DNA of 64,000 bases, from positions 1-64,000 of the forward strand of contig DVLI01000010.1 of the NCBI GenBank assembly GCA_018715595.1, given 5' to 3'. The DNA is from Candidatus Caccoplasma merdavium (lineage in GTDB: Bacteria; Bacteroidota; Bacteroidia; Bacteroidales; UBA11471). Below, piece by piece: positions 324-55,776 of the stretch (the first letter of the stretch is position 1; each line of letters begins with the position of its first letter). A program made the translations under genes and the position numbers. The notes below the pieces were generated by a model. The model worked only from the letters and a program-made list of their open reading frames with translations. It made no database searches and was not told where the DNA came from.

Positions 324-1520
324 ATGGCATTGAAAATTTTGCATACGGCCGATTGGCATTTGGGTCAGACGTTTTATTCCTATGAACGCCATGACGAGCA
401 TGAAGCCTTTCTTTCGTGGCTGTGCGGGCAACTTGTCGCCCAGCGAGCCGATGTGCTCTTGATTGCGGGTGATGTTTTCGACACGCCCAATCCGTCGGCT
501 CTTTCGCAACGCCTTTTTTATCGCTTCCTGCGTCGGGCGACCGAGGAGAATCGCACGTTGCAGATTGTCGTCATTGCGGGCAATCACGATTCTGCGGCCC
601 GTCTCGAAGCTCCCGACCCGCTCTTTGAGGAGATGCGGGTGGTGGTGCGCGGTCTTGTGCGGCGCACCCCGGCGGGCGATATCGACCTCGACCGTCTCAT
701 TGTGCCGTTGGGTCACGCGCTTCACCCCGAGGCATATTGCCTGGCGGTGCCTTTCCTGCGGCAGGGCGACTACCCGCGTGCCGAGAATTATGGGCAGGGG
801 GTAGCGGCGCTTTACCGGGCGTTGTGCGAACGGGCTTCCCGGCTGGGCAAACCTCTGGTGGCCATGGGGCATTTGCAGGCTACGGGGGCGGAGGTGTCGG
901 AGAACGACCGTTCTGAACGAACGGTCATCGGCGGTCTCGAATGTGTGTCGCCTGAGGCTTTCGATGCGTCGCTCCGTTACACGGCGCTGGGGCATCTGCA
1001 TCGCGCCCAACGGGTGTCGCGACGTGAAAATGTGCGGTATGCCGGGGCTCCGATACCGATGTCGTTTGCCGAGCGCAACAATCGTCACGGTGTGGTGTGT
1101 GTCACGCTCGACGGTGACTCGACCGCCATCGAATGGCTTCCCTTTGAACCGCCGGTGCCGTTGGTGTCGATAAGTGGGACAAGTGAGACGATTTTTGAGG
1201 CCATCGCTCAGTTACCCCAGGGCGAGGCCGATGCGCACGCTCCTTATCTCGAAATAAAGGTGCGTCTCACGCAGCCCGAGCCGTCGTTGCGCCGTCGCAT
1301 CGAGGAAGCCTTGGTGGAGCGGCGGGTGCGTCTGGCGCGTTTGGCTCCGGAGTTGCCGGGGCAGGGAGCCGGCGGGGAGGCAGTCGCTTTTGCTGATGAC
1401 TGGCAGGAGGTGTCGCCCATGCAGATTGCCCGGGAACATTATCAGAAAATCTATCAAACGGAAATGCCGGCAGAGATGACCACTTTGCTGCAACAGGTGA
1501 TGAGGGAGGCGCAGCCATGA
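324..1520 (+). CDS. sbcD: Nuclease SbcCD subunit D
   Basis: This is the Mre11-type, metal-dependent nuclease subunit of SbcCD, which trims hairpins and blocked double-strand ends during recombination and replication repair. The 398-residue protein carries the calcineurin-like phosphoesterase motifs in order: DWH at 10-12, GDVFD at 49-53, GNHD at 86-89, MGH near 181-183 and GHLH at 223-226. These supply the metal ligands and catalytic histidine. The start is the first ATG after a TAnnTTTG promoter. The TGA stop overlaps the sbcC ATG (ATGA), so the two subunits are translationally coupled. Length and motifs are normal for the family. Confidence 0.96.
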   Translation: MALKILHTADWHLGQTFYSYERHDEHEAFLSWLCGQLVAQRADVLLIAGDVFDTPNPSALSQRLFYRFLRRATEENRTLQIVVIAGNHDSAARLEAPDPLFEEMRVVVRGLVRRTPAGDIDLDRLIVPLGHALHPEAYCLAVPFLRQGDYPRAENYGQGVAALYRALCERASRLGKPLVAMGHLQATGAEVSENDRSERTVIGGLECVSPEAFDASLRYTALGHLHRAQRVSRRENVRYAGAPIPMSFAERNNRHGVVCVTLDGDSTAIEWLPFEPPVPLVSISGTSETIFEAIAQLPQGEADAHAPYLEIKVRLTQPEPSLRRRIEEALVERRVRLARLAPELPGQGAGGEAVAFADDWQEVSPMQIAREHYQKIYQTEMPAEMTTLLQQVMREAQP

Positions 1521-4500
1521 AGATATTAGCCATACGCGGGAAAAACCTCGCTTCGCTCGAAGGTGAATTTGCGGTCGATTTTACAAGCGAACCTCTTGCC
1601 TCGGCCGGCCTTTTTGCCATAACAGGGCCTACCGGCGCCGGAAAGTCGACGCTGCTCGATGCCTTGTGTCTCGCGCTTTTCGACAAGACACCCCGCATGA
1701 ACCGGGCGCGGGAAAACGGTGTGCTGCTGCCCGATGTCTCCGACAAGACCCTCTCGCAGAACGACTGCCGCTCGTTGTTGCGGCGGGGAACAGCCGAGGG
1801 GTATGCCGAGACCGATTTTCAGGCGCTCAACGGCGATCTTTATCGGGCCCGTTGGGCTGTGCGTCGGGCCCGGGGGCGTGCCGAGGGGTCGTTGCAGCCT
1901 TCGGAGATGCGGCTTTACAATCTCTCCACCGGTGTCGAAGAACAGGGCGGAAAAGGGGAGATTTTGCGTCGCGTCACCCAGTTGCTGGGACTGACGTTCG
2001 ACCAGTTCACACGGGCGGTGCTGCTGGCCCAGGGCGACTTCGCCACCTTCCTCAAAGCCCCCGAGGAGGAAAAGGCCGACCTGCTCGAAAAACTCACGGG
2101 AACCGAGATATATTCGCGCATATCGCAACTCCTGTACCAGCGCAACAAGGAGATGCAGGAGCGTTACAACGACCTCTCCCGGCAACTCGAACTGATTCCT
2201 TTGCTCACCGCCGAGGAGCGGGCGGCTTCTGCCGCGGAGCTTGGCGCCTGCCGCTTGGCCGAGGAAGAGTCGTCCAAGCGTTGCGAGGCACTTAAAGGAC
2301 AGCTGCGTTGGCTCGATGAGCGAGCCGGGTTGGCGGCTCGTCGTCGTGAGGCCGACGTCGAGCATGAAAAGGCGCGGGCGGCCTATGATGAGGCGGCCCC
2401 GCGCCGGGAATATATCGGCCGTTATGATTTGGTGCAGGAGATACGAGATGACTACCAGTCACTGCGTCTCTGCGAGGAGACTCGAAAGTCGGAACAGACC
2501 CGCCTCGATGCACTGGCCGTCGAGAGTCGCCGGTGTGCCCAGGATTTGGCACGGAAAGAGGCGCAACGAAAAGACGTGGAACAGAAACGCCTCCTCCTGA
2601 GAACCGATTGGGACGCCTCGGCTCCCGAACGTCTTCGCGCCGCGGAACTCGATACCCGGCTGGCGGTGAGCCACCAGGCTCTCACCGCCGCCCGGAAGAG
2701 TTGCGAGAAAGCCTCTGCCGACCTGGCTGCCGCGCGGAAAATGCGCCTCGACCGCCAATCGGCTCTCGAACAGGCCCGCCAAGACCTTGCCTCTATCGAA
2801 ACGTGGCAGGCGAAGAACCGCGACTACGAGCCATTGGTCGGCCATCGTGCCCTCATCAAGGAGCTGCTCTCGGATTATTCCCGTCTGGTGCGGGAACGTG
2901 CGGCCGAGGAGCACATGCAGGCCGATAATGCCAAATTGTTGCAGAACTATGAGACGGAGTTGGCCGCCCAGCAGGAGGAGAACCGGCACCTCGATACCAT
3001 CATGCCGAGCGAGGTCTATCTGCTTCGGACCCGCTTGGTCGAGGGGGAGCCTTGCCCCGTTTGCGGCAGTCCCCATCATTATTTGACCGCCAAGGAGGCC
3101 AAGACCTTGCGGGAGGAGGAGCTCGAACGCCAAAAGAAGGAGACTTCGCAAAGAATCGAGACGCTGACCCGTCATGTCGAAAATGCCCGTCAGGCCGATG
3201 TGTTGCACCGTTCCCGCATCGAGAGTTACCGCCGGCAAGAGACGGAGCGTTCCCAAAAGCTCGATGAGCTGTTGCACCTCCTTGTCCCGGCTTGGCGCCA
3301 GGAAGAACAACTCGATGCACGCCTCGATGCCTATGCCGCCTCGTGGAATGACAAACAGACGGCGCGGGTGCGCTTGCAGAGCCTTGTCGAGTCCCTCTCG
3401 GGAGAGCTGCCGGCCTTGGACGAAAACCTGAAAAAGCTCGAATCCATCGAAAAAAACGAACGTCACTCCCTCGATGCGGCGTGCCGCTCGCACGAGGAGT
3501 TGCAGACATGCCGTCGTTCTTTGCTGGGAGGAAAACCGTTGCCCGACGTCGAAGCCGCGCATGAACGCGAAACCCGTCGTCTCGACGAACAATGGGCGGA
3601 GGAAAATCGCCTCTACAACGAACTCAACAGCCGGGCCGAGCATCTCAACGGCACCATGTCGCAACTGAGTCGCCATCTCTCCGATTTGCAACAGCAGTCC
3701 AAGGCCGGGCAGCGACGCATCGAGGAGTGGCTCGACACCCACCGCACGATAACGGCATCGATGCTGTCGGAGTTGATGTCTCATACCCCGGCCTGGGTGG
3801 CCGAGGAGAAAAAGAGCCTGGCTCTTTTGCAGGAACAGCTCTCGGCCTCGGCCACGCGATGCAAGGAAAGAGCCGAAGCGTTGCTTCGGCACGAAACGCA
3901 GCCCGACAAACCTTCGCTCGACGACCCGGCCCTCTTGCAGCAGCAACTGGCCGAGCAGTCGGCCCTTCTGCGCCAACAAAGCGCCCGCATGGCCGAGATA
4001 CAGGCTCGCCTCGATGCCGACGACAAAAACCGGCAGGCGACGGCCCATCTTGTCGAGCAACAGGCGGCGCTCGTGCCCGAAAAACAAAACTGGGAGCGAC
4101 TCAATGAGCTTTACGGTTCGGCCGACGGGCAGAAGTTCCGTCGCATAGCGCAGGGTTATACCCTCGACCGCCTGCTGCTTTATGCCAATCTGCATTTACG
4201 CGGCCTTTCGTCGCGTTACACGCTGCAACGGGTCTCCCGGTCGCTGGCGTTGCAGGTGGCCGACAACGACATGTTGGGCGAGATACGCAGTGTGCACACC
4301 CTTTCGGGCGGTGAGTCGTTCCTTATTTCGCTGGCGCTGGCGTTGGGGCTCTCGTCGCTCTCGTCCTACCGCATGAATATCGAGTCGCTCTTCATCGACG
4401 AGGGCTTCGGTTCGCTCGATGCCGACACCCTGCGCACCGCCATGGAAGCTCTCGAACATTTGCAGATACAAGGCCGCAAGATAGGCGTCATCTCGCACGT

Positions 4501-48132: not shown

Positions 48133-49803
48133 TTACTTGCGGGTGATGCGGAACCAGTCTGTTTCGAGCCAGCCGCTGTCGTTGCTCTTCCACGGACGGG
48201 TGCAGAAGAGGCCGACCTTGGCGCCAATCCATTTGCCTACCTGGGCGGTGAAGGCTTTGCCGACAGGCTCATATTTCTTGCCGTCGAGGCTGTAATAGAA
48301 AGTGCATACGCACTTGTAGTCTCCTTTTTGGGTCGGTTTTTTGGCTCCGGCCTGTTCGAACTTCACGCGCAGGTAGAGCTCATCGCTGTCGAGTTTGATG
48401 GCGGCATTCTCTTTTTCGATGCCCCCTTTGTCGGCTTTCTTGCAGTCGGCTTGCACGAGGTAGAGGCCGTCGGCCCGGCTGTCGAGAGCCAGCACGGCGT
48501 AGTCGAGGCCCATGACCACGAGTCCGGCGCGTTCGCCTTCAACCGTTTTCCCTTTGTTCTTGCGGGGCACGAATTTTACTTTCGTGGTGGCCGTGAAGTT
48601 TTCGGTGGGGAGTTTTTGCAACAGCAGGTTGGGAACGTCATAGAGGCTCTTCATGTCGGGGGTGTAGTGCGAGAAGAGGCGTAGTTGTGAGGCGGCGGCA
48701 TCGCAGAAGTACCACAAGGCATTGGGGTTGCCGTGCCATTGCCATTGCAGGCCGAGGTCCACACTGTCGAACTCGTCGCTTTCGGCGGGGGTGGCTTTCG
48801 GGTAGGTCTTGCCTACGTTGGGTTTTTTATAGGTGCTGACCGGTTCGCCGCAGCCGTCGCCGTCTTTGTCGACACCGATGACGGGCCAGCCGTTTTCGAG
48901 CCATACCATGGGTTGCAGATGCACGACGCGACCGTAAGCGCCTTTGTCTTGGAAGTGCAGGAACCAGTGTTCCTTGCCGTCGGGGGTGTCGACCCAACCA
49001 CCTTGGTGCGGGCCGTTGACGTCGGTGTTGCCTTGTGCCATGACGGTGCGGGTTTCATAAGGTCCCCACACGTTTTTGGAACGGAGCACCACCTGCCAAC
49101 CCGTGGCTACGCCGCCGGCGGGCGAGAAGATGTAGTAGTAGCCGTCGCGTTTATACATTTTGGCCCCTTCGATGGTCTCGTTGCCGATGTGTCCGTCATA
49201 GATGACGCGGTCGGACCCGATGGTGGCGGTGCCGTCGGGAGTCATCTCTATCATGCCGATGATACTCTTCACACCGGCGCGGCTACCGGCATAGCCATGG
49301 GCAATGTAGGCGCGGCCGTCTTCGTCCCAGAAGGGGCAGGGGTCGATGAGCCCTACTGCGGGGTGAATGAGTATGGGGTCGTCCCAGCGTCCGGCCGGGT
49401 CTTTGGTCTTAATCATGTAGATGCCCCGGTCAGGGTCGCCATAGCATACATAGAATTCTCCGTTGTGGTAGCGTATGCTGGGAGCCCACACGCCGTTGCC
49501 GTGCTGGGGCTTGGAGAAGTCTTCTTCGGGGGTGAGCCGTTCGGCGGCATAACCGATGAGGGTCCAGTTGACGAGGTCTTTGGAGTGCAGGATTTGCAGG
49601 GCCGGTATGCAGTTGAAGCTCGATGAGGTCATGTAGTAGTCGTCGCCGACCCGGCAAACGTCGGGGTCGGAGTAGTCTGCGTTGATAATCGGGTTTTTGT
49701 ATTTTCCGTTACCGAGGTCGGGAACCCATACTTCCGAGATGTTTTGGGCCGCGAGCTCGCCGGCCAGGAGCAGGAGGGCTGCAATGAGGCTGTTTTTTTT
49801 CAT
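48133..49803 (-). CDS. GH43 glycoside hydrolase (arabinofuranosidase/xylosidase type)
   Basis: This exported five-bladed beta-propeller enzyme has a C-terminal beta-sandwich. ATG 49803 gives 556 residues with a signal peptide (about 1-20, cleaved after AAQ). The propeller begins [13 protein letters not shown], where Asp46 is the expected base. [17 protein letters not shown] holds the pKa-modulating Asp, and [18 protein letters not shown] carries the acid Glu. The C-terminal domain (about 350-556) resembles the GH43_C2 sandwich. Likely substrates are arabinan or galactan side chains of pectin, or xylan. It follows the CE8 gene by 38 bases. Confidence 0.88.
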
Positions 49804-49841
49804 GGGAGTTTGTTTAGATGTGTTTATATGAGAGATTTGTT

Positions 49842-50819
49842 TTATCGGTTTTGCCACCAGTCGCCGCCGAGGACGTTCTCGCGGGTGTATTTGCGGGCTT
49901 CTTTCTTGGAGAGTTGGCGGCACCAGTCTACTCTTTTCTCGATGCCGGCACCTTCGCCGCTGTTGTGGTATTCGGCATAGCGGGCGGTCTTTTCGTTCTC
50001 GGGGTTACGCCAGTTTTCCCAGCCTTCGTAACGGATATGCTTGCCGAGGTCGCACTCCATGAAGACAACGGCGGCGTAGGCTCGCCACGGACGTCCGAGG
50101 TAGACTTTGTTTACGTCGTTCTCGGCGGTGAGGGTGCAGTTGTGGAAGACATAGCCGAAGGGACTCTCGGCGGCCGTGGAGGCGGCTGTGATGTAAGAGT
50201 TCTGCTTGCTGTGTATCTGGCAGTTCTCAAACCAGCAGATGGCCGGGCCGAAGATGAAGTCGGTCGTGCCGTCGATGTAGCAGTTCTCAAAGTAGACGTG
50301 GCTCTTCTCGTCACCGGTGAAGAGCGTGTCCTGGTTGCCTTTGAGGCGGCAGTTGCGTACGATGATTTGGTCGCCTTCGGTGTGCAGGGCTACGGCCTGT
50401 CCCACACGCCCGGCGTTGTTTTCGATGGTGAGATTTTCGAGGGTGATGCGATGGCCGGCCACCAGCATCGTGTGGGTGCGGAAGGTTCCCATTTTGGTGA
50501 TGCTGTCTCCGAAGTAGACAATTTCTTTGCCGGCGTAGTCGCCAAAGGTGATGATGGTGCTGTCGGCGCTTTCTCCGGTGAGGGTGATGTCGCATTTCCA
50601 GGTGGGAATGATGACTTTCTCGTTATAGGTGCCGTTCTTGATAAAGACGGTGATGGGTATGGGGGTGTAGTCGCGTATGGCGTATATGGCTTCTTGTATG
50701 GAGGTGTAGTCGCCGCTGCCGTCTTGGGCCACGATGAGGCGTTGCTTGGGGCCTTGGGCTGCCGAGATGAAGGTGCAGGCAAGGAAAAAGAAGAGGAAAA
50801 ATTTCATTCGGTTTTTCAT
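49842..50819 (-). CDS. Pectin methylesterase (CE8)
   Basis: This is a right-handed beta-helix esterase that removes methyl groups from homogalacturonan. ATG 50819 gives 325 residues with an N-terminal signal ending near SAAQG. Active-site segments are GNQDTLF, TTDFIFG with the nucleophile Asp, and YLGRPWRAYA with the substrate Arg. The N-terminal IVAQDGSGDYTSIQEAI is the family start. A near-consensus TATCTTAG lies 25 bases upstream. It begins the second pectin unit with GH43. Confidence 0.92.
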   Translation of the reverse strand: MKNRMKFFLFFFLACTFISAAQGPKQRLIVAQDGSGDYTSIQEAIYAIRDYTPIPITVFIKNGTYNEKVIIPTWKCDITLTGESADSTIITFGDYAGKEIVYFGDSITKMGTFRTHTMLVAGHRITLENLTIENNAGRVGQAVALHTEGDQIIVRNCRLKGNQDTLFTGDEKSHVYFENCYIDGTTDFIFGPAICWFENCQIHSKQNSYITAASTAAESPFGYVFHNCTLTAENDVNKVYLGRPWRAYAAVVFMECDLGKHIRYEGWENWRNPENEKTARYAEYHNSGEGAGIEKRVDWCRQLSKKEARKYTRENVLGGDWWQNR

Positions 50820-50844
50820 GATGCGAATTTTTATAATTTGGGGT

Positions 50845-50852
50845 CTAAGATA
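50845..50852 (-). promoter_or_regulatory. Possible -7 element of the CE8-GH43 unit
   Basis: On the minus strand this reads TATCTTAG, one base away from TAnnTTTG, 25 bases upstream of the CE8 ATG. Confidence 0.35.
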
Positions 50853-50920
50853 CGCTTTTTTTTTCTTTGAGAGGTGTCTCTTTGATGCAAAACAGGGGGA
50901 CTTTTTGGTTTTTATGGAAA

Positions 50921-50960
50921 AAAAATCGGTGACGCGCATTTCCTCGCATCACCGATTTTT
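50921..50960 (-). terminator. Terminator of the wHTH gene
   Basis: A 16-bp stem with one G-U type mismatch and an eight-base loop is followed on the minus strand by a long T run. It lies 21 bases past the wHTH stop. Confidence 0.85.
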
Positions 50961-52578: not shown

Positions 52579-54105
52579 TTAGGGTTTTGTGTATTTTATG
52601 GTGATGATTTCGTGGTCGGCTTTTATTTGCAAGAGGTAGAGACCTGCGGGTAAAGCGTGTGTTGCCAGCTTTTGGCTATGTGCGCCGGCCGGCTGGTTTT
52701 TCAAGACGATATTGTCGTGTCTCCTCCCGGCCGGGTCGATGAGTGTCATCTCTACGTCGCTCTGTCGGGGAAGGAGGTAATGCACCTCGGCTTCGCCTCT
52801 GCCCGGTAACAGCCGGGCCGAGAGCGTCTGTGCGGGAGTGTTGTTCACGGCGGAGGGCTGCTCCTCGTTTTCGATGCGGTCCATCTCGATGCAGAGGAGG
52901 ATAAAGGGCCCGACTCCTTTGGGGTCGTTGTCGATTGTCTTGGTCTGGTTCACATAGTAGTCATAGGAGCCGTCGCGGTCGCTGCTCAGTCCTGCGACGG
53001 AGCAGATTTGGTGCAGCAGGGTTTTCCCCTCGGCGTCGAAGGAGAGGTAGTGCTCGCAGATGCCCTGATAGGCTCTCTCGGCAACGGGCAGAAGCGTGTC
53101 GTCGAGGTATCCCAACCGCACGCCCTTGGCAATGGAGTAGGCAAACATGGCGGTGCAGGAGATTTCCTGATAGTTGTCGGTACTGTCGGGGTAATCGACG
53201 ACTTGGTACCAGGCTCCCGTTTCAGGGTCCTGATAAGCCGGCAGTCTGTCGAAGATGCCTTGCAGGATTGTAAGCAGAGATTCCCGGTCGGGGGTGTCGT
53301 CGGGGAGTATTTCGAGCACGTCGACCAGTGCCATGGTGTACCAGCCGAGGGCGCGTCCCCACACATGCTGCGACTGCCCGGTGGTCTTGTCGGCCCATAT
53401 TTGCGCCCGTTTCTCGTCCCAGCCGTGGCGGTAGAGGCCGCTATGGTCGTCGAGGGTGTGTTGTGCCACGAGGTTGAACTGTTTGATGACGTCGGCATAG
53501 GAAGCTGCCGGGTCGTCTTCGAAGTCCCGGGCATATCGGGCATAGTAGGGTGTCCCCATGTAGAGGCCGTCGAGCCACATTTGGTAGGGGTAGTTCTGTT
53601 TATGCCAGAAACCGTCGTCCGAAGTGCGGGGTTGGTTTTTCAACTGCTTGCGCAGGGTCTTCATGGCGGTGAGATAACGGGCGTCGCCGGTCTCTTCGTA
53701 GAGGCGGAACAGGTTCTTGCCGGGGTTTACATGGTCGAGCGAGTAGTTGCGCTCTTTGTAGTTGTAGATGGTGCCCTGGCTGTTGATGGTTGCCTCGTAG
53801 TATCCCTTGGCATAGGTGTAGAGGTCGCTGCAATCGAGCGTGTCGCCGTGGTAGTAGTCATAGGCGGCGAAGATGGCTTGGCACAGCAGTCCGTGGGTGT
53901 AGTTCCATTTGAGGCTGGTGTTGCCGTCGATGGTCTTGTAGTCGGGGTGGCGCAGCATCTCAGAGCGGCTCATGCGCACGGCCATCGGCAGGTCGGTGTC
54001 GATGGCCCTGTTCTCGGCTCGGGCCGATGACGCAAAACCCATTATCATCGCCATGGCAGCGATGATAATGGGCGCGTATGGAGAGAGTAAGGTATGTCGT
54101 TTCAT
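52579..54105 (-). CDS. GH105 hydrolase with C-terminal T9SS-type sorting domain
   Basis: This 508-residue paralogue of the next gene shares the same landmarks (LKWNYTHGLL, YPYQMWLDGLYMGTPYYARY with catalytic Asp, HVWGRALGWYTMALVDVLEILP). It has a cleavable signal peptide (about 1-30, ending ARA). After the catalytic domain (ends near 415) a linker leads to about 80 residues with the type A sorting-domain pattern: VEMTLIDPAGR, then ALPAGLYLLQIK and a Lys-rich end IKYTKP. Such tails direct type IX secretion and surface attachment. No T9SS gene is in the window. It is the middle gene of the three-gene unit. Confidence 0.9.
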   Translation of the reverse strand: MKRHTLLSPYAPIIIAAMAMIMGFASSARAENRAIDTDLPMAVRMSRSEMLRHPDYKTIDGNTSLKWNYTHGLLCQAIFAAYDYYHGDTLDCSDLYTYAKGYYEATINSQGTIYNYKERNYSLDHVNPGKNLFRLYEETGDARYLTAMKTLRKQLKNQPRTSDDGFWHKQNYPYQMWLDGLYMGTPYYARYARDFEDDPAASYADVIKQFNLVAQHTLDDHSGLYRHGWDEKRAQIWADKTTGQSQHVWGRALGWYTMALVDVLEILPDDTPDRESLLTILQGIFDRLPAYQDPETGAWYQVVDYPDSTDNYQEISCTAMFAYSIAKGVRLGYLDDTLLPVAERAYQGICEHYLSFDAEGKTLLHQICSVAGLSSDRDGSYDYYVNQTKTIDNDPKGVGPFILLCIEMDRIENEEQPSAVNNTPAQTLSARLLPGRGEAEVHYLLPRQSDVEMTLIDPAGRRHDNIVLKNQPAGAHSQKLATHALPAGLYLLQIKADHEIITIKYTKP

Positions 54106-54129: not shown

Positions 54130-55776
54130 TTATTTGGCTTCCTTTTGGGGATTCCAGCCGTCATTCCCGCCCAATACGTCTTCGATGGCGTAACGGGAGG
54201 CTTCTTTGCGACTCAGTTGGTGCGACCAGGTTACGCGGCCTTCGGTGTCGGCTCCTGCTCCTTTGTTTTTGTATTCGCAGTAGCGGGCGGTCTCTTCGTT
54301 GGAGGCTTTGCCCCAGTTGTGCCACCCTTCGGGACGAATGTGGCTGCCCATGTCGCAATGGGTGAAGAGCACGGCGGCGTAGGGTCGCCACGGACGGCCC
54401 AGGTAGACGCGGTCTACGCCTTCGTCGGCAGTGAGACGGCAGTCATGGAACACATAGCCGTAGGCGATGTGTTCGGGTGTGGCGGCGGCTGTGATGTAGG
54501 AGTTTTGTTTGCTGTGTATCGTGCACTCTTCGAACCAGGCCGTGCCTTTGCCAAAGATGAAGTCTGTGGTGCCTTCGATGTAGCAGTTCTCGTAGTATTG
54601 ACGGGTGCCTTCACCGTAGGTGTAGAGGGTGTCCTGGAATCCTTTCATCTTGCAGTTCTTGAAGACCGATTTGTCGCTGGCCACAAAGAGGGCGACGGCT
54701 TGTCCCACGGGGCCGGCGCTGTTCTCGAAGGTGACGTTCTCGGCCTTGAATCCGTCGCCGTAGACATAGAACGAGGCCGAGCCTGAGGTGCCGATGTTGT
54801 CGCCGAATTCGTTTTTCTTGGAGGCGTAATCGTCATAGGTGAAGACCACTTTGTCGACATCTTCGCCGATGATGTGAATGTTGGTGCGGTTGCCGGGCAC
54901 GGTGATTTTCTCTTTATACACGCCGTTGCGCACATAGATGGTTATCGGCCGTTTGCTGAATGTGGGGGCGGCGTCGATGGCGCGTTGCAGTGTGAAGAAG
55001 TCGCCGCTGCCGTCTTGGGCCACGACGTAGTCGTAACGGCGGATATAGGGGGCGAGTTTGGGTATTTTCTTCTCGATGGAGTCGACGGCCATGCCGGCTA
55101 CGATGCGGGCGCCTTTCACTTTGAGGTGGGTGTCGTCTTTCCGTCCGTCAGGAATGGCGGGGCAGGTGCCGGGAGCCACCCACATGAAAAGCTCCTTGGA
55201 GGCGTCGTCGCCGAGGTTGTTGACGAGGGTTTCGGTGCTGTTGTTGAGGTCGATGCACACGACTTTCATTTCGGCGGCGACCTCTTTGCAGGCCGTGATG
55301 TAACGCCCGTGGGTGTCGACGAGTTTCCCGTCGTCACCAAACTTGCGGCGGATTATCGAGGTGAAGAGTACCGGTATGGCGCCTTTTTCTCGGGTTTGGT
55401 TGATGTAGAAACGCAGGTTGTTCTTGTAGGCGGTATCGGGGTCGGAGTAGCGGTCGGGCTTTTTCTTCTGGTCGTTGTGCCCGAATTGTATGAAGACGTA
55501 ATCGCCTTTTTTCAACTGGTCATATACGGCGCCCCACCGGCTCATGAAGCTGAGTGAACTGCGGCCGTTCACGGCATGGTTGTCGATTTTTATTTCGGGC
55601 GAGAAGAATCCCGGGAGCACATGTCCCCAGCCCCGCTCGGGGTTTCCTCCGACAAGCGATTTGTTCGACATGGTTGAGTCTCCAATCATGTAGATGACCG
55701 GTTTTTGTTTGTTTGACAAAGCCATGAATGCGGCAATCAAGCAAACGCCAAACAGATATAAAATGATGCGTTTCAT
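54130..55776 (-). CDS. Two-domain carbohydrate esterase (CE12 SGNH + CE8 pectin methylesterase)
   Basis: This 548-residue exported protein joins two catalytic domains. Residues about 25-240 form an SGNH/CE12 acetylesterase: GDSTMSN with Ser34, GHND with Asn101, and DDTHL with Asp214 and His217. Residues about 250-548 form a CE8 beta-helix methylesterase with GFQDTLYT, TTDFIFGKG (nucleophile Asp) and YLGRPWRPYA. It likely strips acetyl groups from rhamnogalacturonan and methyl groups from homogalacturonan. A helix with LIAAFMALS at the N-terminus is the export signal. It is the first gene of the unit, 24 bases before the GH105 gene. Confidence 0.92.
   Translation of the reverse strand: MKRIILYLFGVCLIAAFMALSNKQKPVIYMIGDSTMSNKSLVGGNPERGWGHVLPGFFSPEIKIDNHAVNGRSSLSFMSRWGAVYDQLKKGDYVFIQFGHNDQKKKPDRYSDPDTAYKNNLRFYINQTREKGAIPVLFTSIIRRKFGDDGKLVDTHGRYITACKEVAAEMKVVCIDLNNSTETLVNNLGDDASKELFMWVAPGTCPAIPDGRKDDTHLKVKGARIVAGMAVDSIEKKIPKLAPYIRRYDYVVAQDGSGDFFTLQRAIDAAPTFSKRPITIYVRNGVYKEKITVPGNRTNIHIIGEDVDKVVFTYDDYASKKNEFGDNIGTSGSASFYVYGDGFKAENVTFENSAGPVGQAVALFVASDKSVFKNCKMKGFQDTLYTYGEGTRQYYENCYIEGTTDFIFGKGTAWFEECTIHSKQNSYITAAATPEHIAYGYVFHDCRLTADEGVDRVYLGRPWRPYAAVLFTHCDMGSHIRPEGWHNWGKASNEETARYCEYKNKGAGADTEGRVTWSHQLSRKEASRYAIEDVLGGNDGWNPQKEAK

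Follow-up and report, generated by a model that had tools for sequence, protein, structure and literature searches.

A probable divergent type A T9SS sorting domain on one of two tandem GH105 enzymes in a pectin gene cluster of Candidatus Caccoplasma merdavium

The window analysed here comprises the first 64,000 nucleotides of contig DVLI01000010.1 of Candidatus Caccoplasma merdavium. It contains a cluster of five carbohydrate-active genes in the order GDSL-CE8, tailed GH105, untailed GH105, CE8 and GH43 (Table 1), the two GH105 genes lying on the minus strand with a gap of 6 nt between them. The true start of the GH43 gene is probably an internal Met situated 40 residues into the open reading frame. 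The same gene order is found in L007, the only relative recovered by the genome-contig scan; its GH105 pair sequences are those of genome G006.

Table 1. Features of the pectin gene cluster, with positions in the window.
Feature	Positions	Strand	Evidence
GDSL esterase (CE12-like) fused to pectin methylesterase (CE8-like), upstream, no tail	54130..55776	-	PF13472 55.9 bits, PF01095 257 bits
GH88/GH105 enzyme, unsaturated rhamnogalacturonyl hydrolase-like, YteR-related, 508 aa	52579..54105	-	PF07470 359 bits
Probable C-terminal T9SS type A sorting domain, residues 425-508 of the 508 aa enzyme	52579..52833	-	TIGR04183 18.4/21.3 bits, fold, motifs
Untailed tandem paralogue, GH88/GH105, 409 aa	51343..52572	-	PF07470 363 bits
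Pectin methylesterase (CE8-like), downstream, no tail	49842..50939	-	PF01095 232 bits
GH43 glycosidase, cluster end	48133..49923	-	PF04616 236 bits, PF17851 116 bits

PF07470 (Glyco_hydro_88) covers residues 42-410 of the tailed copy and 40-407 of the untailed one. Beyond this domain the 508 amino acid protein continues for about 95 residues, whereas the 409 amino acid protein ends there. An earlier reading of the sequence alone had described about 80 extra C-terminal residues on the first enzyme and a neighbour that stops at its catalytic domain; both descriptions are borne out, the extra domain lying at residues ~429-507 and PF07470 extending to residue 407 of 409 in the neighbour. Of the proteins with known structure, 4wu0 and YteR are the nearest to both copies; the tailed copy matches 4wu0 with 293 bits and YteR with 250 bits (1nc5; also 2d8l and 2gh4). 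The catalytic Asp143 of YteR aligns to D179 of the tailed copy, and this position, which sits in an invariant QMWLDG, is common to both members of the pair. The YteR and 4wu0 chains carry no tail, whereas one of the two tandem copies here has a putative export signal. From the neighbouring genes and the similarity to YteR, the substrate of both copies would be unsaturated rhamnogalacturonyl compounds. Annotation as the beta-galactosidase BglB (NF051900) was dismissed, since that model requires 420 bits and the score was ~96. Judged by eye, both proteins begin with a Sec signal peptide: the tailed copy shows the n-h-c pattern with cleavage near SARA/EN, and the untailed copy ends its signal at xxDA/KKK, with an ambiguous lipobox.

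The tail was compared with the profiles of type IX secretion system (T9SS) sorting domains. Residues 442-504 match TIGR04183 with 18.4 bits (E 0.0016), the genome-wide scan gave 21.3 bits (E 4.9e-4), and PF18962 scored 17.5 bits. All of these fall under the curated cut-offs (23 bits for TIGR04183, 27 bits for PF18962), and taken singly the profile match of this protein is suggestive, not decisive. Since the score left doubt, four further lines of evidence were examined: the tails of congeners, the fold, the motifs and the secretion machinery. The homologous tails of G001 (25.9 bits) and G005 (24.5 bits) exceed the TIGR04183 cut-off; that of G002 scores 16.6 bits, under it, and in the tail of the G006 orthologue (74% identical overall) TIGR04183 had no reportable match. 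The sequence-only reading saw the pattern of type A sorting domains in the tail and pointed to TIGR04183/Por_Secre_tail; the tail does match that model, below the cut-off in the 508 amino acid protein itself and above it in the two orthologues. An HMM built solely from the 14 other tails of the genome proved too diverse to decide, giving 10.6 bits for the tail, barely clear of shuffled sequences (best of 2000, 8.2 bits), 20.4 bits for G001 and 17.7 bits for G005.

AlphaFold modelling of the tail from two aligned sequences, those of the window and of L007, gave a seven-stranded beta-sandwich (mean pLDDT 83.5) with strands spanning residues 429-507, and the seven strands recur in the full-length model. 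The tail model superimposes on the C-terminal domain (CTD) of mirolase (8qb1, 88 residues) at 1.9 A over 75 residues, almost the whole target (Z 10.6), and on the C-terminal part of PorU (6za2) with Z 10.2. The top matches also include DUF3244 proteins, peptidase Vpr and Ig-like domains of GH2 enzymes. Ig-like sandwiches are a common fold. Since the GH2 domains, which are unrelated, give similar Z scores, the predicted fold is consistent with a T9SS CTD but is not specific to it.

According to published work (PMC11285876, PMC11969387), CTDs are marked by a glycine in the loop joining beta3 to beta4, by GxY and by a basic beta7 residue. In the tail, the motif B-like IDPAGRR (FDMNGRR in RgpB) places G460 in the beta3-beta4 loop, G488-L489-Y490 forms the GxY (motif D), and K504 is the beta7 lysine. 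The extreme C-terminus reads KYTKP, and KYHKK, KYIKK or KFHKK in orthologues, the K-x-x-K ending resembling KLIKK. The motif D glycine is absent from the G006 tail (PAALY). Very low sequence identity is tolerated among CTDs (PMC12618676). With the type A CTDs of RgpB, PorU and mirolase the tail thus shares its place in the C-terminal ~80 residues, a seven-stranded Ig-like sandwich, the beta3-beta4 glycine, GxY, the beta7 lysine and the K-x-x-K end; it differs from them in being divergent, in scoring under the curated cut-offs in its own species and in being borne by a GH105 enzyme. It occupies the extreme C-terminus (425-508 of 508), and the protein that bears it starts with what by eye is a Sec signal peptide. 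The tail is very probably a divergent type A T9SS sorting domain.

The genome encodes a full T9SS set. Profile scores were 2730 bits for SprA, 1101 for PorU, 534 for PorM and 485 for PorV, and PorK, PorL, PorN, PorP and PorZ are also present; the PorU gene adjoins PorV, and PorP-K-L-M-N form an operon. SprA occurs in 7/7 genus genomes. Genome-wide, 14 other proteins carry tails above the TIGR04183 cut-off, among them two PL1-type pectate lyases and two PL11 rhamnogalacturonan lyases located elsewhere in the genome, and a third GH105 gene adjoins two tailed proteins. It had been proposed that porU, porV, sprA, porK/L/M/N and other tailed proteins be sought in the genome, and all were found, with PorP and PorZ besides. 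The assignment would have been abandoned on a tail matching no sorting-domain model or a genome devoid of T9SS genes and other tails; what we found was a tail with a match, below the cut-off here and above it in two orthologues, in a genome with both. The cluster and the tailed cargo fit a pectin system that exports its depolymerases by T9SS.

Several other places in this genome bear on its T9SS repertoire. A second pectin cluster (G000:C17:26331-35500, L012) comprises a GH105, a 781 amino acid protein, a tailed PL1-type pectate lyase and a GDSL-like esterase. The 781 amino acid protein has the best T9SS tail in the genome and otherwise matches nothing in Pfam; a GH105 next to a tailed protein of 755-783 amino acids recurs in three congeners. 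Another GH88 paralogue (L100, G000:C19:8500-11500, at 538-2004, minus strand) ends in a tail of ~40 amino acids (EYYSINGTRLPEIDNGVTIVKRVYSDGTVEYSKCVTTKP) similar to the "short CTDs" of Prevotella intermedia; TIGR04183 and PF18962 miss it. A profile made from two short-tail sequences finds three more such places (G000:C9:26451-26582, C4:5790-5906 and C17:121538-121651). Perhaps a short-CTD class, as these sequences suggest, is also part of the repertoire.

The tailed gene lies directly beside the untailed one in all five species with the pair, namely the present one, G001, G002, G005 and G006, and a tail was found in 0/6 genus orthologues of the untailed copy. Phylogenetic analysis of 33 GH105 domains groups the five tailed copies in a single clade (100/100) on a long stem; the six untailed copies make up a second clade (99/96), sister to the first at 95/87. 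Because the two are sister clades, the simplest history suggested by the tree is that the gene was duplicated in tandem in the ancestor of the genus and that one copy then gained the tail and changed faster. Between this species and G006, the closest pair, the catalytic domains are 95% identical in the untailed copies and 85% in the tailed ones. The tailed orthologue of G002 (L029:622-2745, minus strand) has an extra domain of ~200 residues, with no Pfam match, between GH105 and tail; the tail stays terminal despite this insert, as a C-terminal sorting signal would. That of G005 (L028:1495-3000, minus strand) combines a lipobox-like signal end, VLSSCAAKDE, with the T9SS tail, an odd pairing of two sorting signals, and cleavage by SPI after SSCA is possible.

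The tail changes quickly. Its pN/pS is 0.58-0.84, compared with 0.18-0.26 for the catalytic domain of the same copy, and values in the tails of three other cargo families of the genus are 0.11-0.66. Fast tail change is thus normal in the genus, with the GH105 tail level with or beyond the upper end of these values. Its frame and C-terminal strand (K[YF]xK[KP] end) are nonetheless intact in 5/5 species at near-saturated synonymous sites, and in a simple neutral simulation at divergences of 0.3-0.9, 6-19% of tails remained open on any one lineage. The tail is under loose constraint yet retained.

These rates bear on the idea that the tail was formerly a T9SS signal and is now decaying in the lineage, leaving both enzymes periplasmic. 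Such decay would account for the sub-cut-off scores in this genome and G002, for the missing match in G006, and for the relaxed constraint, with pN/pS close to or beyond the upper end for other cargo. It sits poorly with a frame and terminal strand whole in five species despite the synonymous near-saturation, with the few tails that survive the simulation, and with a well-predicted fold that keeps the beta3-beta4 glycine and the beta7 lysine; CTDs moreover tolerate very low sequence identity (PMC12618676). We regard decay as very unlikely. We give still less weight, by our estimate a slim chance, to an accessory domain of Ig-like or carbohydrate-binding type that has no part in secretion. The GH2 Ig-like domains, DUF3244 proteins and peptidase Vpr among the best fold matches are what it would predict, but homologous tails in G001 and G005 exceed a T9SS-specific cut-off, the domain holds the extreme C-terminal site with CTD motifs (terminal even in G002 with its insert), and the genome has the full machinery and 14 other tails.

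A different objection concerns the untailed copy, which might itself be a surface lipoprotein, so that both enzymes would be at the surface and the tail would not separate the pair. Cysteines do occur near the end of its signal peptide (LAIGCC; ILGC in G002). By eye, however, the first cysteine position is F in G005 (LAVGFCG), the -3 position is non-canonical in most orthologues, the xxA/KK junction is kept in 5/5, and the cysteine is followed by no acidic export motif; we consider this arrangement quite unlikely.

The best reading of the sequences, and the one the sequence-only reading had put forward, is a surface or secreted enzyme and a periplasmic one, both GH105 and both in one pectin cluster. 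We propose, with a probability of about 0.87, that a divergent type A tail exports one enzyme while its untailed twin remains periplasmic, the pair having arisen by tandem duplication and tail gain. Secretion, cleavage of the tail, location, substrate and the division of labour of the pair are what we infer from this. Once past SprA, type A CTDs are recognised by the PorV shuttle, with anchoring or release as the outcome (PMC12618676). The tailed GH105 would cross the inner membrane by its Sec signal peptide, its C-terminal beta-sandwich would be recognised, and the SprA translocon would hand the protein on to the PorV shuttle; PorU would probably cut off the tail and anchor or release the enzyme. 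The untailed paralogue, having a signal peptide only, would stay in the periplasm. Outside the cell the exported copy would take unsaturated galacturonyl residues off rhamnogalacturonan fragments, at the exterior to which the tailed pectate and rhamnogalacturonan lyases would also be sent, and the periplasmic copy would finish the imported oligosaccharides. One might go further and suppose a single catalytic step split across the outer membrane, the surface GH105 trimming lyase products before import and its twin finishing them, with the drifted tail as a locally recognised CTD subtype. The subtype is suggested by the G006 tail, which lacks both a model match and the motif D glycine; this fuller version we hold to be unlikely.

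It is well established that T9SS exports enzymes that degrade polysaccharides (PMC10202324). A literature search of partial coverage found no description of a T9SS-tailed GH105. That GH88 plus T9SS tail is a unique build was dismissed, since it also occurs in G020, G083 and G101. Elsewhere in the order, PF07470 is joined to a C-terminal T9SS tail in L091 (G083, 26.9 bits) and L095 (G101, 41.6 bits), and in L055 and L056 (G020) with tails of 19.8 and 20.5 bits. These proteins are longer, multidomain and belong to three further families of the order. In the tree the G020 pair is distant from the present clade, so its tail was probably gained independently. The GH88 fold with a T9SS tail is a recurrent architecture. 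A separate GH105 variant was seen in G014 (L041:1435-3849, plus strand), in which the domain is fused in one frame to an apparent pectate lyase-like domain (GGRGGKVYVVTSLEDSGEEGTLRHAVEAEGPRIVEF); the fusion would unite a lyase with the enzyme that hydrolyses its products.

The tailed and untailed GH105 are a tidy example of protein sorting of a known kind, not a new kind. As sister enzymes of one duplication, one with and one without an export tail, they offer a clean natural pair for locating the GH105 step. The curated cut-offs would miss real T9SS cargo of this sort, and predicted T9SS repertoires would then be too low. For this uncultured genus of Bacteroidales, the findings suggest that much of the attack on pectin is run through T9SS.
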